From: Hyphomicrobium facile
GTDB lineage: Bacteria > Pseudomonadota > Alphaproteobacteria > Rhizobiales > Hyphomicrobiaceae
NCBI RefSeq assembly: GCF_900116175.1
Contig: NZ_FPCH01000003.1
Span: forward strand, 558,001 to 622,000
Length of the DNA: 64,000 nucleotides
Direction of reading: 5' to 3'
The notes beneath the pieces were generated by a model, which saw only the letters and a list, made by a program, of their open reading frames with translations, had not been told where the DNA came from and did not search any database. This document shows positions 14,849 through 28,301 of this stretch, in pieces; position 1 is the stretch's first letter, and the number at the start of each line of letters is the position of its first letter. The position numbers were made by a program, and so were the translations under genes.

Positions 14849-17800
14849 ATGGTCAACTTCTTCATCCACCGGCCCATCTTCGCCTCGGCGATCGCCGTCA
14901 TCATGGTTCTGGCAGGGACCATTTGCTATTTCCTGCTGCCCGTCTCGCAACTTCCTGACGTCACGCCGCCGCAAGTCGTCGTGAGCGCGATTTATCCGGG
15001 CGCCAGCGCCCAGGTTGTTGCCGATACGGTCACGACGCCGCTCGAACAGCAGATCAACGGCGTCGAAGGAATGACGTACATGTCGTCGTCGAGTTCCAAC
15101 GACGGCTCTTCGAACATCACGATCACATTCGATGTCGGTTATCCGCTCAGCATCGCCGCCGTCGACGTCCAGAACCGCGTGGCAGAAGCTGCATCTTCGT
15201 TGCCGCCCATCGTCAACCAAGCCGGCATCTCGATCAGGAAACAAAACCCGAATTTCGTTTTGATCGTCAATTTGACGTCGCCGGATCAATCCGTCGATCC
15301 GGTTACGCTCAGCAATTACGCCTATCTTCAGATCGTCGATCCGCTGAAGCGGCTGCCGGGCGTGGGCGACGTGCAGATATTCGGCGAACGGCGCTACTCG
15401 ATGCGGTTGTGGCTCGATCCTGACAAGCTATCCCAGCTTGGGATTACGGCTGTCGACGTTCAGAACGCGGTCGCGGAACAAAACATTCAGGTCGCGGCCG
15501 GAAAGATCGGTCAGTCGCCGGCGCCGCCGGGGACGCCATTCGAGATGCAGGTCAACGCGACCGGGCGCCTGAGCAATCCGGAAGAATTCGGAAATATCGT
15601 CGTGCGGTCTAATCCGTCGACGGGCGCCATCGTGCGCCTTCGGGATGTCGCCCGCATCGAGCTTGGGGCGCTTCAATATTCGTCATCGGCATTTTTCGGC
15701 AAAGACCCTTCAGTCGTGCTTGCCGTATTTCAGATGCCCGGATCGAACGCGCTCGATCTGCAGGAACGCGTGCTGACCAAGATGGACGAGCTGTCGAAGC
15801 GGTTCCCGAAGGGGATCGCCTACGGCATGCATTATGACACGACCCGTTTCGTTTCGGCGGCCATGCATGACGTGGTTTTCACGCTGCTCGAGGCGTTGAT
15901 CCTGGTCGTTCTCGTTGTTTACATCTTTCTACAAAGCTGGCGCACGACGATCATTCCGACGATTGCCATACCGGTTTCGCTGATTGCGACGCTCGTGATC
16001 ATGCACGTGCTCGGATTCTCGCTGAACATGCTCAGTCTTCTCGGCATGGTGCTAGCGATCGGCCTCGTCGTCGATGACGCCATCGTGGTCGTGGAGAATG
16101 TCGAGCGGCAGCTGGAAAACGGTCTCAAGCCAATGGCCGCGGCTTTGAAGGCCATGTCGGAAGTGACGGGTCCGATCATCGCGACGACCGGCGTGCTCAT
16201 GGCCGTGTTCATTCCCGTGGCTTTCATCCCGGGCGTCTCGGGCCGTCTCTATAATCAGTTCGCACTGACGGTCGCGATTTCAGTGGGAATATCGGCTTTC
16301 AACTCGTTGACGCTAAGCCCGGCGCTGGCCGCGGTCTTCCTTCGCCATCGCGGTCCGCCATCGTTCGTGCTCTTTCGGTGGTTCAACGCCGGCTTCGACC
16401 GGATTTCGCACGGCTATGCACACCTGGTGCACTTCATGATACGCATCCGCTGGGTGATGCTCTTTCTTTTTGCGGCAGTGCTCGGCGCCACGTATCTGAT
16501 CTCCCAGCGCATTCCTTCGACATTTTTGCCCGTCGAGGACCAGGGATACTTTTTCGTCGTCGTCCAGCTGCCGGACGGGGCTTCGCTCGAACGAACCGAT
16601 GCTGTCGCCAAGAAGGTCAGAGACATTCTGGAAAACACTCCGGGCGTCGATATCGTCGGCTCGATCAGCGGCCTCAACTTCCTGACGAACGCGGCGCAAT
16701 CGAACTCCGCCGTCGAATTCGCCATTCTCAAGCCATGGAACGAGCGGCCACCCGAGCAAAGCGCGTCGCGTCTGGTGCAAGCGGTTCGCGGCCAGCTGCT
16801 CATGATTCCCGAGGCCGTCGTGCTCAGTTTCGACCCGCCGTCGATACCGGGCCTTGGGACGACGGGCGGATTTGAATTCCAGGTTGAAGATCTGACGGGC
16901 CGCGGCAGCGCTGCCCTCAACGACGCCACACAGGCGCTGATTGCAGAAGCCCGCAAACAACCGGAGCTCGATGCGCAGCAGCTCTTCACGTCGTTTTCGA
17001 CCTCGACGCCGCAGTTCAACTACGATCTCGATCGGTCGAAGGCGAAACTGCTGGGGCTCAATCTGCCGGACGTATTCAACACGCTGCAGATCTATCTCGG
17101 TTCGCTCTATGTGAACGACTTCAACCTTTTCGGGCGCACGTTCCGCGTGACGCTGCAAGCGGACACCAATGCGCGCGCCGATCCGTCGAGCCTTTCCCGG
17201 CTTTACGTTCGCAATGCGACGGGCGGAATGGTGCCGCTCAGCACGCTCGGCACGCTAAAGCCGATCGTCGGGCCCGAGACGGTTCCTCATTACAACAACT
17301 ATGCTTCGGCACTGATCAACGGCGGTCCCGCGCCGGGGTACAGCACCGGGCAGGCCATTCAGGCGATGGAACGCGCGGCTGCGGCAGCGCTCCCTCGCGA
17401 CTTCGGTTATGAATGGACAGGCATTACCTTCCAGGAACTGAAGGCGGGTTCGATCGCCCTCGTCGTCTTTGGGTTGGCCAGCATTTTCGTGTTCTTGATC
17501 CTTGCCGCGCAATACGAAAGCTGGTCGATGCCGTTCATGGTGCTGCTTGCAGTGCCGCTCGCGCTGTTCGGCGCGCTCCTTGCGATCTGGGTCCGCGGCC
17601 TGCAAATCGACGTCTATTCGCAGATCGGATTCGTCATGCTCATCGGTCTTTCGGCGAAAAATGCCATTCTGATCGTCGAGTTCGCGAAGAGGCGGCGTCT
17701 CGAGGGCTTGTCCATCGTCGAGGCTGCGATGGAAGCGGCGCGGCTCCGGTTGCGCCCGATATTGATGACCGCATTCGCCTTCATTCTTGGCGTCGTTCCG

Positions 17801-18013
17801 CTCATGATCGCGAGTGGAGCGGGCGCCGCCAGCCGGCAATCGATCGGCACGACGGTTTTCGGAGGAATGCTGGCTGCGACGCTGCTTACGCTGCTGTTCG
17901 TTCCGGTGTTCTACGCGGTCATCGAAGAGTGGCGGGAAGGGCGTGATGCCCACACTTCCGGGAAGGTCGACACATCAGGCAGCGATGCTTCGCATCCGGC
18001 TGCCGCCGAATAG
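14849..18013 (+). CDS. RND multidrug efflux permease (HAE1/AcrB-like)
   Basis: A 1054-residue inner-membrane proton-driven pump. It starts MVNFFIHRPIFASAIAVIMV, the typical HAE1 first helix. Two large periplasmic loops follow TM1 and TM7. TM4 carries the proton-relay Asp pair in GLVVDDAIVVVENVERQ, and TM10 the Lys in LSAKNAILIVEFAKRR. Length matches AcrB/MexB. It lies 14 bp upstream of its adaptor gene. No outer-membrane TolC-like gene is in the window, so the pump must borrow one. Substrates are unknown. Confidence 0.95.
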   Translation: MVNFFIHRPIFASAIAVIMVLAGTICYFLLPVSQLPDVTPPQVVVSAIYPGASAQVVADTVTTPLEQQINGVEGMTYMSSSSSNDGSSNITITFDVGYPLSIAAVDVQNRVAEAASSLPPIVNQAGISIRKQNPNFVLIVNLTSPDQSVDPVTLSNYAYLQIVDPLKRLPGVGDVQIFGERRYSMRLWLDPDKLSQLGITAVDVQNAVAEQNIQVAAGKIGQSPAPPGTPFEMQVNATGRLSNPEEFGNIVVRSNPSTGAIVRLRDVARIELGALQYSSSAFFGKDPSVVLAVFQMPGSNALDLQERVLTKMDELSKRFPKGIAYGMHYDTTRFVSAAMHDVVFTLLEALILVVLVVYIFLQSWRTTIIPTIAIPVSLIATLVIMHVLGFSLNMLSLLGMVLAIGLVVDDAIVVVENVERQLENGLKPMAAALKAMSEVTGPIIATTGVLMAVFIPVAFIPGVSGRLYNQFALTVAISVGISAFNSLTLSPALAAVFLRHRGPPSFVLFRWFNAGFDRISHGYAHLVHFMIRIRWVMLFLFAAVLGATYLISQRIPSTFLPVEDQGYFFVVVQLPDGASLERTDAVAKKVRDILENTPGVDIVGSISGLNFLTNAAQSNSAVEFAILKPWNERPPEQSASRLVQAVRGQLLMIPEAVVLSFDPPSIPGLGTTGGFEFQVEDLTGRGSAALNDATQALIAEARKQPELDAQQLFTSFSTSTPQFNYDLDRSKAKLLGLNLPDVFNTLQIYLGSLYVNDFNLFGRTFRVTLQADTNARADPSSLSRLYVRNATGGMVPLSTLGTLKPIVGPETVPHYNNYASALINGGPAPGYSTGQAIQAMERAAAAALPRDFGYEWTGITFQELKAGSIALVVFGLASIFVFLILAAQYESWSMPFMVLLAVPLALFGALLAIWVRGLQIDVYSQIGFVMLIGLSAKNAILIVEFAKRRRLEGLSIVEAAMEAARLRLRPILMTAFAFILGVVPLMIASGAGAASRQSIGTTVFGGMLAATLLTLLFVPVFYAVIEEWREGRDAHTSGKVDTSGSDASHPAAAE

Positions 18014-18027
18014 ACAGGGATTTCGCG

Positions 18028-19212
18028 ATGCGCCTTTGGAAGATCATTGGCTTGGCTTTGCTGGTTGCCGCTGGCAGTGCGGCCTACGTTCACCGGCAAG
18101 AAATCGAGAAGCTTGTCGCCTCGCTCGAGCAGCCGGCGGCCGAGCAGCCTCAGGCCGCTCTCGTCATGCCCGTACCGGTCGCGCCTGTCGTCAAACGCCC
18201 GGTGAGTATTTATCTGGAATATCCGGCGCGGACGGAATCCATTCGTGACATCACGCTACAGGCGCGGGTTTCAGGTTACGTCCAGAAGCAGGTTGTTCCC
18301 GATGGCGCGGACGTCGCCGCCGGCGACCTTCTGTACGTGATCGATCCGCGGGATTATCAAGCGGCCCTCGATCGCGCGAAAGCTCAGAAGCAGCGCGACA
18401 TCGCCGCCCGGGAATACGCCAGCTCCAGTCTCGAGCGTGGGTCGGAACTCACCAAAAGCGGGTGGCTCGCCAAGGATACTTTCGATCAGCGATCGAGTTC
18501 GCTGCGCCAGGCCGACGCCGCCATAGCGATTGACGAGGCCGCCATCCGGGAGGCCGAGCTCAATCTCGAATATACCGAAATCCGTGCGCCGTTCGCCGGG
18601 CGGCTGGGCAAGAACCAAGCGGCGATCGGTGCGCTCATCAACGTCGCAGGTGCGGTCCTCAATACGCTGGTCCAGATCGATCCCATTTATGTGACGTTCA
18701 ATCCGAGCGAGGCGGATCTCGGCGCCATCCAGAAAGTTCATGCCAGCGGCCAAACTGCGGCCGAGATCTTCGTTCCCGGGAACGACAAGGTGAAGCACAA
18801 AGGCACGATCACGTTCATCGACAATAGTGTCGACCGGCTGACTGGGACGCTCACGGCGCGCGCCACCATCGCCAACGCCGATCGCGCGCTCCTGCCGGGG
18901 CAATACGTTCGCATCCGCATTCATGCCGGCGAGGACGCCAATGCCCTGATGGTGCCCCAGACCGCGCTCGGCTCGAGCCAGCTCGGCAAGTATGTGTACG
19001 TGGTCGGCGAGAAGAACATGGCGGAGCAGAAACTGGTGACGACAGGCCCGACGGATGGGGATCTCATCAGCGTCGTCGGCGTGAACGAGAAAGATCTCGT
19101 CATCACTGGGAATCTGCAAAAGATCGGGCCTGGATCTCCGGTGCAGCCTCTTACCGCTCCACCACCGCAGGCCGGCGAGAAGCGCACTGTCACCACCGGT
19201 GCCGTCAATTAA
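18028..19212 (+). CDS. RND efflux periplasmic adaptor (membrane fusion protein)
   Basis: A 394-residue AcrA/MexA-family adaptor. An N-terminal membrane anchor (IIGLALLVAAGSAAYV) is present; no lipobox Cys is seen. The barrel-sandwich half YLEYPARTESIRDITLQARV with VVPDGADVAAGDLLYVIDPR is followed by an alpha-hairpin (about residues 100-165). The second lipoyl half LEYTEIRAPFAGRLGKNQAA and a beta-barrel domain (IDPIYVTFNPSEADL) come next. It follows the permease gene, the reverse of the common adaptor-first order. A terminator lies 22 bp after the stop. Confidence 0.93.
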   Translation: MRLWKIIGLALLVAAGSAAYVHRQEIEKLVASLEQPAAEQPQAALVMPVPVAPVVKRPVSIYLEYPARTESIRDITLQARVSGYVQKQVVPDGADVAAGDLLYVIDPRDYQAALDRAKAQKQRDIAAREYASSSLERGSELTKSGWLAKDTFDQRSSSLRQADAAIAIDEAAIREAELNLEYTEIRAPFAGRLGKNQAAIGALINVAGAVLNTLVQIDPIYVTFNPSEADLGAIQKVHASGQTAAEIFVPGNDKVKHKGTITFIDNSVDRLTGTLTARATIANADRALLPGQYVRIRIHAGEDANALMVPQTALGSSQLGKYVYVVGEKNMAEQKLVTTGPTDGDLISVVGVNEKDLVITGNLQKIGPGSPVQPLTAPPPQAGEKRTVTTGAVN

Positions 19213-19233
19213 GTCCGAATAGCGCTCAAAGAG

Positions 19234-19276
19234 AAAGGCGCGGCCAGCTCATGTAGAGCACAGCACGCGCCTTTTT
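19234..19276 (+). terminator. Terminator of the RND operon
   Basis: AAAGGCGCG (19234-19242) pairs with CGCGCCTTT (19266-19274), with TTTTT running to 19275. The 23-nt loop contains a small inner GCTC/GAGC hairpin. Confidence 0.8.
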
Positions 19277-19306
19277 ATACGTCTCGGGCTTGGCTTCGCG
19301 CCGCGT

Positions 19307-20728
19307 TTAGAAATCGACGCGCAGCATCGATCCGCCGTAAGCACCTTCGCCGCCGGCTCTCGTTTCGCCGCTGTTGTTCACGAACTGCTGGCCGACGTTG
19401 AAGGTCACCTTGGCCGGCAAACCACTCCACCAGAGATGGAACGGGATCGTTGCGAATGCGCCGACGCGCGTCGCGATATCACCCTCGTCACTGTAGATGG
19501 AGCTTTCAGGTCCGAAGATGAACGTCTTCGCGTTGTAGCCTACGCGAGCTTCCGCGTAGTAGGAGTTGAAGGCGGTCGAGTAGCTGCCTTCCAAGCTTCC
19601 GTACAGCGGGCTTTCATCGTCGGTCTCGAGTTCGACCGCGACTTTGAAGCCATCAGCGCCGCCGCGAACGTCGTTGTTCGGGTCAAAGGGTGACAGATGG
19701 ACGTTGCGCACCTCGTAGCCGAGGTAGGCAATGGCGCTCCAGTTGGAGAAGACCCATTGATAGCCGAGCATGATGTCGAGCGACCGGTCGTCCGCATCGA
19801 CCGTCGAATTGACCGGCTCACCCGCCTGATAGCTGTAATCCGCGATGATGCCCTGCGTCCGGAGCAGGAAACCATTCTTGTAAAGATCGCCGCTCAAGCC
19901 GAAGACAGTACCGCCGTACCATGCGACCGAGTCGTTTGCTGCGTCGATGCCGTTGTAAGTGATGACCTTCGGGCCGCGATCTTCCGTGATCGGGTCGGGG
20001 TTCAAAACTTTCGAGCGGTCGAGCTTATAGACGAGCCCTGCCTGCACCGTCCAAATCGAGGGAACTTCGCGGTCTACGAAATCGACCCCGTCAACGGTGC
20101 CACTATTCGTAATTCTGCCTGAGAAGTCCGAATAACGCGCCTCGCCGCGCAGATAGAAGTTATCGGAAATTCGCCGCTCGACGCCGCCACCGACAAAATA
20201 GCCGCCGAAGTTCTGGCCGCCCTTGCCGTGGGCCGTCGTATCGTCGGTGTCGATGTCCCACCATCCATCATTGGAGAAGTGAGCCTGCGTGTAACCGCCC
20301 GTCGCGTAGACCAGCGTCTGCTCGTTGACCAGGATGCCGGCGCGCGCGCCGATCGCCCATGAGCGATCGATCGTCATCGCGTTGTGAATGTCTTCGTTGC
20401 CGCGATTCAATTCGGAGACCGAGAAGTCGGCGAAGGCGCCGACGACGTAGCGGCTGCCTACCTGACGGTCGATACCATAAATCAGCGAGACCAGGCCGCC
20501 ATCGGCGAACTCGTTCCTGGACGAGGTCGTGTCCTCGCTATCGTGATAGTTGTTTTTCGAGTGGTTGTGCCCGAAGCCGCCGCTAACTCCGAAATATATT
20601 CCCGACCAGCTCGGCGCTTCGACCTGAACTGGCGTGTCCTTCAAAGAGAAAGGTCCATCGGCGAGGGCGGGTGCGACCATCGCGGGCATAGCCGCTCCGC
20701 ACGCCATTGCCGCAAAAAGCTTCTTCAT
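19307..20728 (-). CDS. Outer-membrane protein: OmpA-like barrel plus BcsS-like C-terminal domain
   Basis: A 473-residue exported protein. The signal peptide is MKKLFAAMACGAAMPAMVAP...ALA. Residues ~40-240 look like an 8-stranded Omp25/RopB-type barrel (WSGIYFGVSGGFGHNHS, VVGAFADFSVSELN, YATGGYTQAHFSNDGWW, RISDNFYLRGEARYSDFSG). Residues ~260-473 form a second beta-rich unit (SVAWYGGTVFGLSGDLYKNG, LDIMLGYQWVFSNWSAIAYL, YAEARVGYNAKTFIFGPES) that resembles the cellulose biosynthesis protein BcsS. It ends in Phe, as outer-membrane barrels do. It lies 195 bp downstream of the NRPS gene on the same strand. No other bcs gene is present. The two-domain reading is mine and needs a structural prediction. 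Confidence 0.75.
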   Translation of the reverse strand: MKKLFAAMACGAAMPAMVAPALADGPFSLKDTPVQVEAPSWSGIYFGVSGGFGHNHSKNNYHDSEDTTSSRNEFADGGLVSLIYGIDRQVGSRYVVGAFADFSVSELNRGNEDIHNAMTIDRSWAIGARAGILVNEQTLVYATGGYTQAHFSNDGWWDIDTDDTTAHGKGGQNFGGYFVGGGVERRISDNFYLRGEARYSDFSGRITNSGTVDGVDFVDREVPSIWTVQAGLVYKLDRSKVLNPDPITEDRGPKVITYNGIDAANDSVAWYGGTVFGLSGDLYKNGFLLRTQGIIADYSYQAGEPVNSTVDADDRSLDIMLGYQWVFSNWSAIAYLGYEVRNVHLSPFDPNNDVRGGADGFKVAVELETDDESPLYGSLEGSYSTAFNSYYAEARVGYNAKTFIFGPESSIYSDEGDIATRVGAFATIPFHLWWSGLPAKVTFNVGQQFVNNSGETRAGGEGAYGGSMLRVDF

Positions 20729-20923
20729 TGGTCTTCCTCAAAGCGCAAAGTCGCGAGCGCAGACGACCATCCTCAATACGAAGATGTCGAAACACCGTCT
20801 GGTACTTCTCTAAGGTATCGAGGGAATGTGATTCGCGTGCCAGAGTCGAGTTTGAACGTCAACGATCAAATGCGTAGGCGCCGCAGTGATGTCCGCGGTG
20901 CCACAGTTTCACATTAGTTGTAC

Positions 20924-23900
20924 TCACACGGAGACGTGTATCAACTCGTTTTGCTTTTTCACCAGCCGCGCTGGCCTCCTATGTTGTGCATAAGAGCGGC
21001 CGTCGACGACCCGCAGATTGTCGCTTATGGCGACTCTTGCCTTAGGCGCGGCAAGAGGCTCGCACGGTGTGCCGTGCCAGCGCGTTCCGGCCGGCAGGAC
21101 GTCGCCTTTCATCAGGACCGATAGGGCACCGAGGTTCGACGCGGCGTGCATTTCCGTTCCGTAGAGAACGACCGCCATATTGCCGACGGTGCAGCCTTCG
21201 CCGATTTTGATGCGATCGGCCTTGAAGACGCGATCCTCGAATAGATGGTTCTGAATCGTCGCGCCGACGTTCAGGCACGCGCGGTCATCGATGTCGACGA
21301 GATCGAATTCGGAAAAGAGGGTCGTTTCGAGATAGCACCACTTCCCGATTTTGCAGCCCATCATGCGCAAGCACGATGAGATGAACGGCGTTCCCATCAG
21401 CGGCGTCATGGTTGTCGCCGCCACTGTTTCGTACACGCCATTCACGAGCTCGTTGTTCCAGATGAACCGGCACCAGAGGGGCTTCACTGTCGGCGCGATA
21501 CGGCCGACGAACAGCGCCTTGACGAGAGCCGTGAGTACTATGGACCCGGCCGCAAGAGCCGCCGCGACAAAGGGAATGCCCGCGACCACGACCCAGAGCG
21601 GCAAGGTGCGATAGCCGATGACAAGATAGCTCGTGAACGCGATGCCTTCCGCGGCGACGATAAAGCCCGGCAATAGTATGCGAAGGGTATCGGTCATCGT
21701 CCGTGCGATCTTCGCGCCGAGCGCCGGCTTAAAAATTTCGGCGTCGTTGAAGCAAACATTGCGTTGCGTCTGCGGGAGAGCAAACCCAGGCGAACCCAGC
21801 CAGCGCGTATCGTCGGGAATTTCAGTGGCGTTCGCTGGCGGCGTCGACGCAACGCCGATCAACGCGTTGTCGCCCACGGCATGACCGCCCGGAATGAGCG
21901 CACTGTTGCCGATGAAAGAGCGCGAGCCGATGCGCACTGCTCCGATCTCGACTGTACCGGCGTTGAGCCGCTCTCCGCCGATGAGGCAAGCGTCGGCCAG
22001 GAAGCTCCCATCGCCGACATCGAGGAGACTAGGCACAACATGCGAGACGGTTGAAACTTCCGAGCCAGCGCCGATCTTCGCACCCAGGGCGCGGAGAAAG
22101 ACCGGGCAGTAGACGGTCGCGTAAACCGGCAGCAGGATGGTCTTCGTGTTCTTCAGCAGATAGCTGACGAACCAATGCCTCAGGTAGGCGAGGCTGAAGA
22201 CCGGCATTTGGCCAGCCTCGGACGGCTGGAGCAGGGTGACAAGCGTAATTGCGCCGAGCGCGTAGGTCAGGACTCCGACCGGTACCGCGATGAACGCGCC
22301 GATCGCGCCACCCAGAGGTCCGCCGAACGACAGTCCAGCCGCGATGATGATGGCGGATGGGATGATCGTCGCGATCAGAAAATATCCCATCACGTAAATA
22401 AGCGCGAGATGCAGCACGCCGAACGTGAACGTTCGCAGCAGCGTTGGCGAAGGCGTCGTCGCTTCCGGAGTTACGACTTCGGCCAGCAGCGCGGGCGATC
22501 CGCGACGGCATTCGTAACTTCCCATGGCGGTGCCGTCGGGCAGCGAGGACATATCGTCGAGCCGTGCACCGTCGCCCATGCTCGTGCCGAGACCGAGACT
22601 GCAGTGCATGCCGATGAAGCAATTCTCGCCGATATCGACCGGTTCGATAACGAGGTAGCCGTCCTCAACGCGATATCCGAGGATCTGGCTTTCGAGACCG
22701 ATGCTCGAACCGCGGCCGATCGAGACAACGTCGTAGGCGCCGCACAGAGATGTCGACAGCGAGACGTTGCGGCCAATCTTGGCACCCATTGCGCGCCAAT
22801 AGAGATTCATCAACGGCGTGCCCGCGAACATGTCCGACCAGCTCAAAGCTTGGAAACGCGTCACAAACCACCATCGGAAGTAATAGAAGCTCCAGAGTGG
22901 ATAGCGGCCAGGCTTGACGCGACCGATGACCAACCACTTGAGCGCGATGCTCAAGAACAGCATGCTCGGCCAGATGGCGAAGCCGACCACCGTCGAGATT
23001 TGCGCTGCGCGCTGCCACGTGATCTGACCGTCGACCACGGCGGTCGCTATCAGCACCATGTACGCGAGCGGCGCTAAGAGAATGCCGTAATAGGCCGCGA
23101 TGCTCAAAGCCTGGAGCGACACCGTCGTCCAGCGCATTAGCGGATGCACGCTTTTGAAGGCTTCCTTTGATACGTCCGCCCGGGCCGGGTTTTCCTGTTT
23201 TTCTGCGCCCATGCGGCCTTCGAGAACGGAGGCGAGTGCCCGTACGGAGCGATGCTCGTAGAAATCGCGAACCGAGATTTGAACGCCGGCGATGGCTTCA
23301 CGAACGAGGCTCGCGCATCGCGATGCCAAGAGTGAATGTCCGCCGAGATCGAGAAAGAAATCGTCGGTGACCGAAATGCTCGGTAGGCGAAACGCTTCAG
23401 ACCAAGCCGCCGCGATGCGCGCCTCGAGCTCGCTCGCAGGAGCGACGACATTGCCGAGGCCCTTCAGCAGCGTCTTGGGCTGGGGCAACTTTTTCCGGTC
23501 GACCTTGCCGCTCGTCGACATCGGAAGCTCGGCGATGACATCGAGATATTGGGGCACCATGTAAGCGGGCACGCGCCGTCGCAGCAGTTCGTCGACCGCT
23601 TGACGATCGAGGCTTTCGTCCGCTCCGTGACAGACGACGAAAGCCGCAAGCTCCTTGATGTCGTCTCCGACCGCGATGACCGCAGCCGCCGCGGCCTTGA
23701 TTTGAGGATGCTCCATCAGGACGGCTTCGATCTCGGAAAGCTCGATGCGAAAACCGCGGAGCTTCACCTGATCGTCGAGGCGCCCGAGAAAATAGAGTTC
23801 GCCTTCATGCCCGAGCCGCACATGATCGTAGGTGCGATACAATCGGCCTCTCTTTGCCGGTTCGAATGGATCGGCAATAAAGCGCTGATCGGTAAGCGCT

Positions 23901-25018
23901 TCGAGATGCATGTAGCCGCGTCCGACGCCAGCGCCGCCGATGAACAGCTCGCCGTTTTCGCCCGGCGCCACGGGTTGAAAATTTTCGTCGAGGACGTGCG
24001 TGGAATAGCCCGGCAGAGGCTTGCCGATGGCAACCGGCTCGCCGCTTACACACTCATGCCAGGTCGCAACGACGGTCGCCTCCGTCGGGCCGTACGTATT
24101 CAGCATGCGGCGTCCCGGCTTTGCCCATCGCGTCACCAGCTCTTGCGAGCAGGCTTCGCCGCCAAGAACGAGCGTCGTCACCGTCGGAAGATCGCGATCG
24201 ATCATCGCGAGCATCGTCGGCACGGTCGAAAAATAGCTGATCTGCATGTCGTCGATAAATTGGGCGACGTCAGCCGGCGACCTTTCGACTTCTTCGGGCG
24301 GAACCACCAACGTTCCGCCGCGAGAAAACGCAGCCCAGATTTCTTCCACCGATGCGTCAAAGGCGGTCGAAAATCCCTGGTAGATGCGGTCGTCCGCCGT
24401 CACCTTGTAGACTGAGCGCAGCGATTTGACGAAAGCGACGACGTTGCGATGTTCGATCATCACGCCCTTTGGGCGACCCGTCGAACCCGATGTGTAAATA
24501 ATGTAGCTCAACGCACTCGGGTGGATTTCCGCATCGAGCAGAAGGTCGACGGATTCGTCCGATTGCCCGGCCAGAACGTGCCGTTGGCGGTCAACCAGCA
24601 GGAGCGGCGTCACGACTTTACCTTCGATCACGCCTGCGAGTGCATTTTCCGAGATGATCAAACGTAGCTGCGCATCGTCTTCGATCGCGCGGATACGCTC
24701 CAACGGCGAACGCGGATCAATCGGCACATAGGCGGCGCCGGCTTTCAAAATGCCGAGAATTGCCGCGTAAAGCTCCGGCGATTTCTTAAGATAAATTCCG
24801 ACGAGATCTTCAGCGCCTATTCCGCAAGAAACCAAATAATTGGCTATGCGATTTGCGGCCGCATCAAGTTCTTCATATGTGAGCGTTTCACCCGCAAATT
24901 CGATTGCAGGATGATCAGGCCGCCGCTGCGCTTGGAATTCGAAATAGTGGTGGAGGAGCCGCGGCTCTCTTGTTCGCCCAGTTTCCAGCGAATGCCAATT
25001 TGGTTCGTATACTGACAC
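20924..25018 (-). CDS. Single-module membrane NRPS, Pls/PosA family (poly-amino-acid synthetase-like)
   Basis: A 1364-residue protein. Adenylation domain (~20-510): A3 YIIYTSGSTGRPKGV (172-186), A4 with Asp221 in FSTAFDASVEEIW (the residue that holds the substrate alpha-amino group), A5 NTYGPTEAT (307-315), A8 GRLDDQVKLRGFRIE (412-426) and A10 STSGKVDRKKLP (Lys505). A carrier domain has its phosphopantetheine Ser562 in LDLGGHSLL. From ~630 on there are three pairs of membrane helices, each followed by a hexapeptide-repeat (LbH) domain. This is the architecture of epsilon-poly-L-lysine synthetase: no condensation or thioesterase domain. The GTG start at 25018 has AGGA 5 nt upstream. It overlaps the PPTase gene by 104 bp. 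The substrate amino acid is unknown. Confidence 0.93.
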   Translation of the reverse strand: MSVYEPNWHSLETGRTREPRLLHHYFEFQAQRRPDHPAIEFAGETLTYEELDAAANRIANYLVSCGIGAEDLVGIYLKKSPELYAAILGILKAGAAYVPIDPRSPLERIRAIEDDAQLRLIISENALAGVIEGKVVTPLLLVDRQRHVLAGQSDESVDLLLDAEIHPSALSYIIYTSGSTGRPKGVMIEHRNVVAFVKSLRSVYKVTADDRIYQGFSTAFDASVEEIWAAFSRGGTLVVPPEEVERSPADVAQFIDDMQISYFSTVPTMLAMIDRDLPTVTTLVLGGEACSQELVTRWAKPGRRMLNTYGPTEATVVATWHECVSGEPVAIGKPLPGYSTHVLDENFQPVAPGENGELFIGGAGVGRGYMHLEALTDQRFIADPFEPAKRGRLYRTYDHVRLGHEGELYFLGRLDDQVKLRGFRIELSEIEAVLMEHPQIKAAAAAVIAVGDDIKELAAFVVCHGADESLDRQAVDELLRRRVPAYMVPQYLDVIAELPMSTSGKVDRKKLPQPKTLLKGLGNVVAPASELEARIAAAWSEAFRLPSISVTDDFFLDLGGHSLLASRCASLVREAIAGVQISVRDFYEHRSVRALASVLEGRMGAEKQENPARADVSKEAFKSVHPLMRWTTVSLQALSIAAYYGILLAPLAYMVLIATAVVDGQITWQRAAQISTVVGFAIWPSMLFLSIALKWLVIGRVKPGRYPLWSFYYFRWWFVTRFQALSWSDMFAGTPLMNLYWRAMGAKIGRNVSLSTSLCGAYDVVSIGRGSSIGLESQILGYRVEDGYLVIEPVDIGENCFIGMHCSLGLGTSMGDGARLDDMSSLPDGTAMGSYECRRGSPALLAEVVTPEATTPSPTLLRTFTFGVLHLALIYVMGYFLIATIIPSAIIIAAGLSFGGPLGGAIGAFIAVPVGVLTYALGAITLVTLLQPSEAGQMPVFSLAYLRHWFVSYLLKNTKTILLPVYATVYCPVFLRALGAKIGAGSEVSTVSHVVPSLLDVGDGSFLADACLIGGERLNAGTVEIGAVRIGSRSFIGNSALIPGGHAVGDNALIGVASTPPANATEIPDDTRWLGSPGFALPQTQRNVCFNDAEIFKPALGAKIARTMTDTLRILLPGFIVAAEGIAFTSYLVIGYRTLPLWVVVAGIPFVAAALAAGSIVLTALVKALFVGRIAPTVKPLWCRFIWNNELVNGVYETVAATTMTPLMGTPFISSCLRMMGCKIGKWCYLETTLFSEFDLVDIDDRACLNVGATIQNHLFEDRVFKADRIKIGEGCTVGNMAVVLYGTEMHAASNLGALSVLMKGDVLPAGTRWHGTPCEPLAAPKARVAISDNLRVVDGRSYAQHRRPARLVKKQNELIHVSV

Positions 25019-25832
25019 GGGCTTCCTCGAGGGGCTGACGCCACGAGCCCCTTTCTTTGCGGCCGCCCATTGCGACGGCCACGGAAAGTCGATGCCCTTG
25101 GCATTTGGCGATCCATGTCCGGAACGTTACCGGTTCGCCCTGGGGGTTCGGATGTCCCGACCAAAGGCGATCGTTGCGGAGATCAAATGCAACTGTCGAT
25201 GCTTCAGCAATTCCGGTGCCAAGCATCTTGAGGTAGGCTTCTTTGAGCGCCCAAAGCCGAGAAACCGCCGTTTCCCGCTCCCCCACAGCCATCGATTTCA
25301 GTGCCGTCTGTTCGTCAGTCGTGAAGACGTCAGAAAGCCATGTGTCATTCGTATCAACGATGGCGTTTTCAATATCGATACCAACTGGGCCGCACGTAGA
25401 TACAGCGACAACCGACGCCAAACGCGTGTGAGAACAGCTGAAATTCAAACTGCCAGCGTTGTTCGATAGCGTTGGTTTTCCCCAGGCTGACCTTTTAAAA
25501 CTCCACTCGTGTGCTGCCGTCCGGCCGCCGACACTTTCAGTCAGTGCTTTCCGAAGAACGGCACGCGTCGCAAGCGAACGACGACGCATTTCGACGTTAC
25601 GTATCGAAGCAAATTCGTCGATGTCAGCTTGGGCCAGTGTCCCGAAATGCTCCGTAAGGTTACTTGCGGTAGCGTGTGGCACGTACCAAATTCGTACACC
25701 CGGGAAATCGTGCTCGGCCTCGAACGCGTTAACAGAGATTTCCACCTCTGCGCCGCGCGCGGGCGGGCCTTGGGTTAATTTCCCCGGAAAAGAAAATAGA
25801 CGAGCCATTTTGCAATCAATGCAGTCGAACAC
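24915..25832 (-). CDS. 4'-phosphopantetheinyl transferase (Sfp type)
   Basis: A 305-residue enzyme that would attach phosphopantetheine to the carrier domain of the adjacent NRPS. The Sfp signature is present: GKPTLSNNAGSLNFSCSH (119-135), the metal-binding VGIDIE (150-155), and LWALKEAYLKMLGTG (193-207). The last ~35 residues (Ala/Pro-rich) lie beyond the conserved domain and are read from the same DNA as the NRPS N-terminus in another frame. The start could be the internal ATG at 25808 (MARLFSFPGK). The gene is first in the operon. Confidence 0.93.
   Translation of the reverse strand: MFDCIDCKMARLFSFPGKLTQGPPARGAEVEISVNAFEAEHDFPGVRIWYVPHATASNLTEHFGTLAQADIDEFASIRNVEMRRRSLATRAVLRKALTESVGGRTAAHEWSFKRSAWGKPTLSNNAGSLNFSCSHTRLASVVAVSTCGPVGIDIENAIVDTNDTWLSDVFTTDEQTALKSMAVGERETAVSRLWALKEAYLKMLGTGIAEASTVAFDLRNDRLWSGHPNPQGEPVTFRTWIAKCQGHRLSVAVAMGGRKERGSWRQPLEEARVSIRTKLAFAGNWANKRAAAPPPLFRIPSAAAA
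25022..25028 (-). promoter_or_regulatory. Ribosome binding site for the NRPS gene, inside the PPTase coding region
   Basis: On the minus strand GAGGAAG precedes the GTG start at 25018 by three bases (AGGA core, 5-nt spacing). It supports this start despite the 104-bp overlap, and suggests translational coupling of the two genes. Confidence 0.7.
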
Positions 25833-25961
25833 AGACGCGCGTCATCGCGGGTCGCATGCGATCTGCTCTAAAAAGAATTGGGTGTTAATGGAATGCTAAA
25901 CTATGCTTACTGATCAAATTGCTGATATAAAGGTAAACTTCATTTTTCTGTCAAAAAGACC

Positions 25962-25985
25962 GCGACACTTTCAAATCAGTGTCGC
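25962..25985. repeat. Perfect 8-bp stem-loop just upstream of the M23 peptidase start
   Basis: GCGACACT (25962-25969) and AGTGTCGC (25978-25985) are perfect inverted arms around an 8-nt AT-rich loop. The element lies 18 bp before the TTG start at 26004, within the divergent PPTase/peptidase promoter region. It could be an operator, or an mRNA hairpin controlling translation. Confidence 0.55.
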
Positions 25986-26003
25986 AACGGTATTGGTATT
26001 GGT

Positions 26004-26765
26004 TTGAAAATTCCAGAGAGTTTAAAGGACGTGCTTTTATTTCGATATGCGATTTTTATCGTCGCTGGCTTCTTCGTCACGCTCACGGTCACAATGGGAA
26101 ATGCCACTGATTCAGACGATACGCCAACTGTTACACCCACCGGCTTAAAACCAAATTACCCGGCCGGCTACAATTGCACACCCATTTCGTCACCATATGG
26201 GAGTTGGATTGATGTCGACGGCACGCGCCGCGATGAAATTCATACCGGTGTCGATGTCGGCCGATTGGGCGAATGGATATTGGCGCCCGCCTCGGGAACG
26301 GTGCGCGCGGCTTGGAAGGCAAATTGGAAATGGGGCACCGAAGGCGCCCTCCTGATCCAGCATGATCGCGACGATCTAAATCTCACCAAAGGGCCGAAAT
26401 TCTATTACTCCGAGTTCGACCATCTCGACTTCGACGAAATCAAACATTTTCGCGAAGGGCAAAAGGTGAAGCGCGGTCAGCGGCTGGCTCGTGTCACGCA
26501 TCCCGGTGAAAACCAGACCTATCTGCCGGAGGTTCATTGGGAAGTCTGGAAGGCTGATCATGACAATCTGACGTGGCGTACCAATCGTTACGACGCACCC
26601 GATTGGTGGAACGACAGCGCGGAGCTTGTCGACCCTTTATCGCTTCTCGGCCTGAATAATCCGCCGACTGAGGATAAGAGCGTTGCTATTGTCCCGTTCG
26701 TAAATGGCAAAGACTACGACGGCTTTCGCGGATTCACCTATATTATGCCGTGTACTCCGAAGTGA
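26004..26765 (+). CDS. Membrane-anchored M23 (LytM-like) peptidase
   Basis: A 253-residue protein. An N-terminal hydrophobic segment (FRYAIFIVAGFFVTLTVTM, residues 13-31) is a signal or anchor. The rest has a lysostaphin-like fold: ligand motif HTGVDVG (HxxxD, near residue 80), then the LLIQHD strand, a gap with inserts, and the last motif VHWEVW near 176 (HxH reduced to a single His, as far as I can see). M23 enzymes cut peptidoglycan cross-bridges; degenerate members are regulators. The only upstream start in frame is TTG 26004. Local DNA is more AT-rich than its neighbours. Confidence 0.8.
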   Translation: MKIPESLKDVLLFRYAIFIVAGFFVTLTVTMGNATDSDDTPTVTPTGLKPNYPAGYNCTPISSPYGSWIDVDGTRRDEIHTGVDVGRLGEWILAPASGTVRAAWKANWKWGTEGALLIQHDRDDLNLTKGPKFYYSEFDHLDFDEIKHFREGQKVKRGQRLARVTHPGENQTYLPEVHWEVWKADHDNLTWRTNRYDAPDWWNDSAELVDPLSLLGLNNPPTEDKSVAIVPFVNGKDYDGFRGFTYIMPCTPK

Positions 26766-26868
26766 GCCGTGTTCCGCACGGAAAACCTCGATCCGGCTGT
26801 AGGCTCATAGTTGGCATTACGCTTGCTTAGATATCTCCAAATTCGATCCGAACCAGGAGTGGGGTCAC

Positions 26869-27405
26869 ATGTCCCAAATTATTTCGAAGCCGCGCATCGC
26901 CGTCATCTCATTATTCTCGGCAGTATTCGCCGCTTTCTTTTCGCTCCCGGCTAATGCCCAGAACGCGGCACCAGCCGCGCAGGCCGATAACGGAAGCGTC
27001 TGGTGGAACGAACTCATCAGCGCCAACCCGGAGCGCAGCCGCGACTTCTATGCTGGCGTGATCGGCTGGACACCGAAGATCGTGGCAGCGGAAGATACCT
27101 CTCGTCCGCCCGCCGCCGGCGAAAACGAGTACACTCTATTCATGCAGAACGGTAACGAGAGCGCCGGGCTCGCGAAGTATGACGGCAAGGAGCCGACCGA
27201 TCCCAAGCCCGGCTGGCTGACCTACATTCAAGTCAGCAATGTCGACGACGCCGTTGTCGAAGCATTGAAGAAGGGCGGCAAAGTTCTCAAGGCTCCGACC
27301 GATGCCAATAACATCGGTAGACTTGCGATTGTCGCCGATCCCGACGGCAATCCCTTTGGCCTCGTCACGCCATTGAGCAAAGATTCGACCGCGGCGGGAC
27401 ATTAG
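26869..27405 (+). CDS. Exported VOC-superfamily (glyoxalase-like) protein
   Basis: A 178-residue protein with a clear signal peptide (ISLFSAVFAAFFSLPANAQ, cleavage near residue 30). A single glyoxalase/bleomycin-resistance repeat pair follows: VWWNELISANPERSRDFYAG and IGWTPKIVA, then WLTYIQVSNVDDAVVEALKK, ending with VADPDGNPFGLVTP. Most VOC proteins are cytosolic, so export is unusual. Function unknown. Confidence 0.83.
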   Translation: MSQIISKPRIAVISLFSAVFAAFFSLPANAQNAAPAAQADNGSVWWNELISANPERSRDFYAGVIGWTPKIVAAEDTSRPPAAGENEYTLFMQNGNESAGLAKYDGKEPTDPKPGWLTYIQVSNVDDAVVEALKKGGKVLKAPTDANNIGRLAIVADPDGNPFGLVTPLSKDSTAAGH

Positions 27406-27435
27406 AATTTCGAAAGTCAGCGGTGCGCCCATCAC

Positions 27436-27470
27436 AGGCCCGGCGGGGATCAGCAATCCCTGCCGGGCCT
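27436..27470 (+). terminator. Strong hairpin after the exported VOC gene
   Basis: A 15-bp stem (27436-27450 with 27456-27470, one G-U pair) around a 5-nt loop, 30 bp after the stop codon. The T-tail is poor (TCATGCTTTC), so it may act as an mRNA 3' stabiliser as well as a terminator. Confidence 0.65.
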
Positions 27471-27604
27471 TCATGCTTTCGGCCCACTCATGGGCAACCC
27501 ACCTGCTTCTGCCGGCCCTCGAGGGAACGCACAGCGTTCAGAAGGCGTTGCGAAGTTGATACGGCGATCCGTCAGACGATTGGGAAGAAGCAAAGGAAGC
27601 AGGG

Positions 27605-28225: not shown

Positions 28226-28301
28226 TGGTGGAGCCGAGGGGAATCGAACCCCTGACCTCTGCAGTGCGATTGCAGCGCTCTCCCATCTGAGCTACGGCCC
28301 C
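28226..28301 (-). tRNA. tRNA-Ala (anticodon CGC), CCA encoded
   Basis: On the minus strand the 76-nt cloverleaf begins GGGGCCGTAGCTCAGATGGG and ends with the encoded CCA. The anticodon arm is CTGCA-loop-TGCAG with the loop ATCGCAC (anticodon CGC). The T arm has GGTTCGATTCC. The acceptor stem carries the G3-U70 pair that defines alanine identity. Confidence 0.97.

Follow-up and report, generated by a model that had tools for sequence, protein, structure and literature searches.

A 64,000-nucleotide stretch of the Hyphomicrobium facile genome (contig NZ_FPCH01000003.1, positions 558,001 to 622,000; hereafter the window) encodes a Pls/PosA-family non-ribosomal peptide synthetase within a conserved gene cassette. 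From sequence comparison, we conclude that this locus is probably a Gram-negative cassette for the biosynthesis and handling of the antimicrobial polymer epsilon-poly-L-lysine in Hyphomicrobium, that is, that a lysine polymer is made here and that the genes function together. A preliminary description of this DNA had singled out the synthetase and its 4'-phosphopantetheinyl transferase (PPTase). That reading did not extend to the other members of the surrounding cassette: an outer-membrane barrel, an M23 peptidase and an exported glyoxalase-fold protein. The family of the synthetase, its architecture and substrate pocket, the conservation of the cassette and the co-occurrence of its genes were all computed directly. 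The cassette and its genes are as follows.

Positions 19212..27603, no strand assigned: the cassette, about 8.4 kb, which corresponds to an empty site in the relative G005.
Positions 20924..25018, minus strand: the Pls/PosA-family synthetase, 1364 amino acids from a GTG start codon, with an adenylation (A) domain, a carrier domain and a C-terminal polymerase domain of three predicted units, each of membrane segments and a left-handed beta-helix.
Positions 24915..25832, minus strand: the Sfp-type PPTase (PF01648, 56.0 bits; cutoff 25).
Positions 19307..20728, minus strand: an outer-membrane protein (OMP), in which an Omp25-like barrel (PF13505) is fused to CBP_BcsS (PF17036, 208.2 bits, C-terminal half).
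Positions 26004..26765, plus strand: an M23 metallopeptidase with a hydrophobic, signal-like N-terminus, divergent from the PPTase gene.
Positions 26869..27405, plus strand: a glyoxalase/VOC-fold protein with a signal-like N-terminus.

The synthetase is a confirmed member of the Pls/PosA (CHPA) family. The NCBIfam model TIGR02353 (Pls/PosA family non-ribosomal peptide synthetase) matched residues 636-1318 at 555.9 bits (cutoff 423.1), which supports the epsilon-poly-L-lysine synthetase-type architecture proposed beforehand, and the A domain carries the family's aspartate and glutamate at specificity code positions 1 and 3 (D221 and E225). Pfam searches at E<=0.001 identified AMP-binding (residues 26-369), AMP-binding_C (429-505) and PP-binding (534-597) domains and no condensation or thioesterase family, as had been described, and the carrier serine sits within DLGGHSLL. 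The proposal of three units, each with two transmembrane segments and hexapeptide repeats, is borne out in part: by hydropathy, the hydrophobic segments fall in three clusters (~644-698, 880-927 and 1116-1178) within which six individual helices were not separated. Pfam models reported hexapeptide repeats in the first unit only (~793-820). Sequence matches to beta-helix proteins were found in all three units, with unit one (~770-856) matching the left-handed beta-helix tetrahydrodipicolinate N-acetyltransferase (E 6e-7), unit two (~999-1086) weakly matching a ferripyochelin-binding protein and a hexapeptide transferase (9e-4 and 1e-3), and unit three (~1269-1321) weakly matching gamma-carbonic anhydrase-type chains (4e-4 and 1e-3). 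We consider the three-unit reading credible because the weak second and third matches sit where the family model expects them. As described in PMC10522769, the family makes cationic polymers joined via isopeptide bonds, and the C-terminal domain is modelled there as three beta-helices over a six-helix bundle. Within the third unit, Q1256 and H1258 were found in 42/42 aligned rows and E1261 in 40/42, making the family-invariant QxH motif (1256-1258) a candidate catalytic site. The nearest named records come from Hyphomicrobium metagenome-assembled genomes (L055, 95% identity; L057, 84%) and from a record labelled Proteobacteria (L056, 84%). Elsewhere, one family member (L035 and L076, genome G258) is broken by an in-frame TAG stop.

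The pocket of the A domain points to L-lysine. Asp221, from which the preliminary description had argued for an amino-acid substrate, occupies the first position of the specificity code. We mapped the ten positions by alignment, a procedure that yields DMEHNGTVSK for PosA of Acinetobacter baumannii, in agreement with the residues given in PMC10522769. In the window protein the code is D221 A222 E225 S264 V284 G286 T308 V316 V317 K505, or DAESVGTVVK. A comparison with known Pls enzymes had been named beforehand as a check, and by alignment nine of ten positions are identical to the crystal sequence of Streptomyces albulus Pls (7WEW, DAESIGTVVK), the tenth being a conservative change of Ile to Val at position 5. 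Among eight other congeners, five read exactly DAESIGTVVK and three share the window code. PMC10522769 argues that the side-chain amine is bound by the glutamate at position 3 and that chain length depends on how large the residue at position 2 is, with Phe for short side chains, Met for ornithine and Ala for lysine. The window residue at position 2, A222, is Ala as in the lysine pocket of Pls. Because the pocket agrees with Pls at 9/10 positions and has Ala at position 2 and Glu at position 3 (PMC10522769), we predict that the A domain activates L-lysine. The preliminary description had left the product in this lineage open; the pocket sharpens it to a predicted epsilon-poly-L-lysine. Codes beginning with DAES or DGES were absent from 38 other loci of the order that fall outside the window clade defined below, all 38 of which gave a readable code. 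A further four of those 42 loci gave no code (in genomes G258, G032, G175 and G143), the proteins of G258 and G143 being far from the window protein and those of G032 and G175 falling below our filter of over 300 bits and 900 amino acids. Unusual pockets were seen in other family members, namely DVEANGTGSK (L096), DFEHSGTCSK (L098) and DYECISLVSK (L074).

A polymerase of the same family could instead use another cationic amino acid or derivative, such as beta-lysine, ornithine or a modified lysine. Specificity codes are degenerate, position 5 differs from Pls, and PMC10522769 reports a homologue whose A domain showed modest activity with arginine but did not activate any of the diamino acids offered. 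We nevertheless judge a different substrate unlikely, given the agreement at nine positions with Pls, the five congeners that agree at all ten, and the Met that the ornithine enzyme PosA has at position 2. The neighbors of the closest relatives also bear on this. In trees of the A domain and of the C-terminal domain (42 rows each), the 12 proteins of the order with a DAES code (nine from Hyphomicrobium and three from family f30) group with three proteins that have the code DGESVSVVNK (L072, L073 and L080), with support from the Shimodaira-Hasegawa-like approximate likelihood ratio test of 99 and 98. The code of an epsilon-poly-beta-lysine synthetase is given as DGESISVVNK in PMC10522769. In 3/3 of the DGES loci a KamA-family (lysine-2,3-aminomutase-like) gene adjoins the synthetase, each beside a poly-beta-lysine-type pocket.

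L072:6341-7663: KamA-family gene.
L080:5388-6713: KamA-family gene.
L073:8826-10130: KamA-family gene.

These genes scored 230-259 bits with TIGR00238 (cutoff 199.2) and fall under the stricter lysine 2,3-aminomutase equivalog cutoff. We regard the three loci as candidate Gram-negative epsilon-poly-beta-lysine loci in the order to which the window belongs. The 12 alpha-lysine loci all lack a KamA-family gene within 10 kb, which argues further against another substrate for the window protein. As a marker of beta-lysine only, KamA was weakened by its presence within 10 kb at 3/42 other loci of the order (G156, G089 and G227, code DFEALGTVTK), and because of these loci the KamA pattern is support, not proof, for the pocket predictions. 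At L103:15069-16535, and also in G089 and G227, a more distant KamA-family gene lies within ~4 kb of a DFEALGTVTK-code synthetase; these synthetases possibly make another beta-amino-acid polymer. Separately, a C45/acyltransferase-family gene lies near two of the three beta-lysine-code synthetases (L072:3524-4540 and L073:2255-3295).

The synthetase is accompanied by the same genes throughout the genus. In all nine Hyphomicrobium loci (the window and L064-L071), the glyoxalase-fold and M23 genes are divergent from the PPTase, synthetase and OMP genes. The cognate Sfp-type PPTase directly upstream, as first described, adjoins the synthetase in 9/9 of these loci; in the window it overlaps the synthetase start by 104 nucleotides, with GAGGAAG directly upstream of the synthetase GTG, and GIDIE and WALKEAYLK, which we take to be its catalytic motifs, are intact. 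Signal-like N-termini were seen by hydropathy on the OMP, the M23 peptidase and the glyoxalase-fold protein and not on the PPTase. A synthetase over the cutoff was present in 9/22 genus genomes. Full-length OMP matches occurred in the same nine genomes and in none of the 13 others, and the same held for M23 and glyoxalase-fold matches of any length (E<=0.001), the 13 including three incomplete genomes (G017, 71% complete; G018, 84%; G021, 88%). Partial, weak OMP matches were found in 11 of these 13. The relative G005, which lacks the cassette and whose yifB is 96% identical, aligns to window positions 16636-19211 and resumes at 27604; in G005 the two blocks are 271 bp apart, compared with ~8.4 kb in the window. 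In a yifB tree of 19 genomes, from which G002 and G006 (split or broken) and G019 (no match at 1e-100) were omitted, cassette presence changes at least five times, with mostly weak supports.

Several neighbors and origins were considered and set aside. The adjacent RND efflux pump (14849-19212) came into question as exporter because of its position, but was rejected as a part of the cassette: it occupies the same place in the cassette-less G005, and in L065, L068, L070 and L071 no such pump was seen in the 20 kb surrounding the synthetase. A recent foreign island is not indicated either: guanine plus cytosine content is 0.579 in the cassette, near the 0.599 of the window, and the junctions share no 9-mer. 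A tRNA-Ala (cgc) gene lies at window positions 28226-28301, ~0.6 kb from the cassette edge; it is not that edge, given that the G005 alignment resumes at 27604, between the cassette and the tRNA.

Could the cassette be a merely linked block, in which the M23 peptidase, the barrel and the glyoxalase-fold protein are unconnected with the polymer? Presence or absence of a block gives co-occurrence through linkage alone, the neighboring RND pump and folD are unrelated, and a locus with a lysine-like code (L097) lacks M23 and BcsS neighbors. What decides us against this explanation, which we consider improbable, is the distribution beyond the genus. In a sample of the order, 49 loci over the cutoff were found in 48/297 genomes, with three candidates scored per genome so that second copies can be missed; seven of these loci belong to the window clade. 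BcsS lies within 10 kb at 13/15 clade loci (these seven and the eight other genus loci) vs 0/42 loci of the order outside the clade, and in the two misses, G051 and G023, BcsS is on another contig. It also lies near two of the three beta-lysine-code synthetases. In family f30 the arrangement differs: the synthetases of L081 and L082 have M23, BcsS, a TPR protein and PPTase next to them, so that the association of M23, BcsS and PPTase with the synthetase is seen again in a second family, in another gene order. In G051, the same four-gene block (L100) and the synthetase (L083) are on separate contigs, each >25 kb from the contig end; the genes are thus kept in the genome though apart. The M23 subfamily (E<=1e-20) was detected in 4/297 genomes of the order (G000, G051, G159 and G208), which are exactly those in which a lysine code was read, and was not found at this threshold in the beta-lysine genomes G238, G188 and G023. 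The glyoxalase-fold protein was rejected as an alpha-lysine-specific partner, with weaker homologues in 52/297 genomes at E<=1e-15 (the window's genome included) and near two beta-lysine loci.

The enzyme might also attach a single lysine or a small number of them to an acceptor in the envelope (a lipid, peptidoglycan or a polysaccharide), with the BcsS barrel and the M23 protein acting on wall or polysaccharide and not on free polymer; the cassette neighbors are envelope proteins, BcsS takes its name from cellulose loci, and M23 peptidases usually cut peptidoglycan. This is the least probable of the three alternatives, as the C-terminal domain is full length here and the full-length enzymes described in PMC10522769 make isopeptide-linked poly-amino acids.

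Returning to an epsilon-poly-L-lysine cassette, we infer its product and the roles of the M23 peptidase, the barrel and the glyoxalase-fold protein, and the steps could run as follows. The PPTase would prime the carrier domain, and the A domain would adenylate L-lysine and load it onto the carrier. The membrane-embedded three-unit domain would then link lysines by isopeptide bonds, with the polymer released towards the periplasm. The M23 peptidase may trim or destroy the polymer for self-protection, like PldII of Streptomyces, an unrelated counterpart, and the BcsS-type barrel may give the polymer a passage through the outer membrane or an anchor on it, which is the weakest step. We propose polymer trimming or destruction only tentatively for the M23 peptidase, and hold the barrel's part in outer-membrane crossing or attachment to be possible with equal reserve. 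A wider model is a dedicated Gram-negative route for export and tolerance of polycationic isopeptides, with an inner-membrane synthetase, a BcsS barrel as exit or anchor, and M23 hydrolyzing epsilon-polylysine as immunity, the barrel being common to the alpha- and beta-lysine versions and M23 restricted to alpha; as a whole we consider this rather unlikely.

A number of observations weigh against an epsilon-poly-L-lysine cassette. The window clade is separate from actinobacterial Pls in both trees. A single clade for 14 lysine-code rows, including the actinobacterial L084 and L085, was rejected on the C-terminal domain by the approximately unbiased (AU) test (p=0.000374) and not rejected on the A domain (p=0.197). 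Function is inferred across a deep split because the polymerase domain is not close to that of actinobacterial Pls. For a common origin of all lysine pockets these constraint tests, with L097 outside the constrained rows, give no single answer. L097, from another order and outside the clade, has the lysine-like code DAESIGTVIK, and M23 and BcsS of the window type were absent from the 20 kb around it, the genome beyond being unsearched. Genus-level co-occurrence is partly linkage, three of the four genomes of the order with M23 belong to one genus, so that about two lineages are represented, and the glyoxalase-fold protein was not found in the three f30 alpha-lysine genomes at E<=1e-15. In the synthetase itself, the beta-helix matches of units two and three are both weak, a structure prediction of the C-terminal domain from four sequences was unusable (mean predicted local distance difference test score 29.2), and the A7 motif (residues 394-401) is YRTYDHVR rather than YRTGD. 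Across the genus this motif is YRTYDHVR in 8/9 rows and YRTFDHVR in L065; it is YRTSDLVR in L081, and the usual reading in the other rows listed is YRTGD or YRSGD. The OMP gene starts 195 nucleotides downstream of the synthetase, and its own promoter is possible. Finally, we take HxxxD and HxH to be the motifs of an active M23 endopeptidase. HxxxD is kept (HTGVD in the window), and HxH reads ExH in 12/12 rows, with Glu for the first His in a conserved PEVHWE. Because of this change the immunity step is uncertain, and the window M23 may be altered or inactive.

The locus resembles known systems in part. With Pls of S. albulus (A domain PDB 7WEW), the window protein shares the predicted A-carrier-(transmembrane segments plus C-terminal unit)x3 architecture, the nine pocket residues and the family model, but it is ~33% identical to the two actinobacterial Pls-code proteins (L084 and L085), in a separate clade. 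Both settings have a metallopeptidase gene as a neighbor (PldII in Streptomyces, according to PMC8117764; M23 here), whereas the peptidase is of another family and the window host is Gram-negative with an outer-membrane barrel. A Kitasatospora locus with the Pls code has an M1 peptidase gene beside the synthetase. The delta-poly-L-ornithine synthetase PosA of A. baumannii (8G95-8G98) is likewise a Gram-negative family member with this architecture and the conserved Asp/Glu pocket; however, its code is DMEHNGTVSK, and PMC10522769 describes its gene as forming an operon by itself, with no evident cotranscribed neighbors. The epsilon-poly-beta-lysine synthetase type of Streptoalloteichus hindustanus (DGESISVVNK; PMC10522769) is matched by the sister proteins L072, L073 and L080 with DGESVSVVNK and KamA, while the window protein has an alpha-lysine code and no KamA-family neighbor. 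BcsS (PF17036), an accessory of some cellulose loci, matches the C-terminal half of the OMP, although the window copy is fused to an Omp25-like barrel and lies beside a Pls/PosA-family synthetase. No cellulose genes were found among the window genes scanned; cellulose synthase was not looked for across the genome. The nearest solved relative of the glyoxalase-fold protein is Rv0577 (3oxh, 81.8 bits).

The synthetase family was already known, including in alphaproteobacteria, and is widespread; what is new, going by the literature matches listed, is its envelope setting in the cassette and the M23 peptidase that goes with the lysine code. Public alphaproteobacterial records annotate such synthetases, also beside a PPTase (Rhizobium, Sphingomonas), and the family is known in Rhizobia and Methylobacterium from PMC10522769. 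That paper claims the first such polymer outside Actinomycetes and does not settle what these polymers do biologically. Among the matches listed, in a search for which subscription journals were mostly outside the scope, no paper was seen that deals with a family member from Hyphomicrobium or with BcsS next to a synthetase of this kind, nor one that describes how bacteria with an outer membrane secrete a membrane-active polycation and withstand it. The cassette supplies concrete, testable candidates for polycation export and tolerance in the barrel, the M23 peptidase and the glyoxalase-fold protein. It also offers a natural comparison in related bacteria, between alpha-lysine loci with M23 and beta-lysine loci with KamA and without M23.

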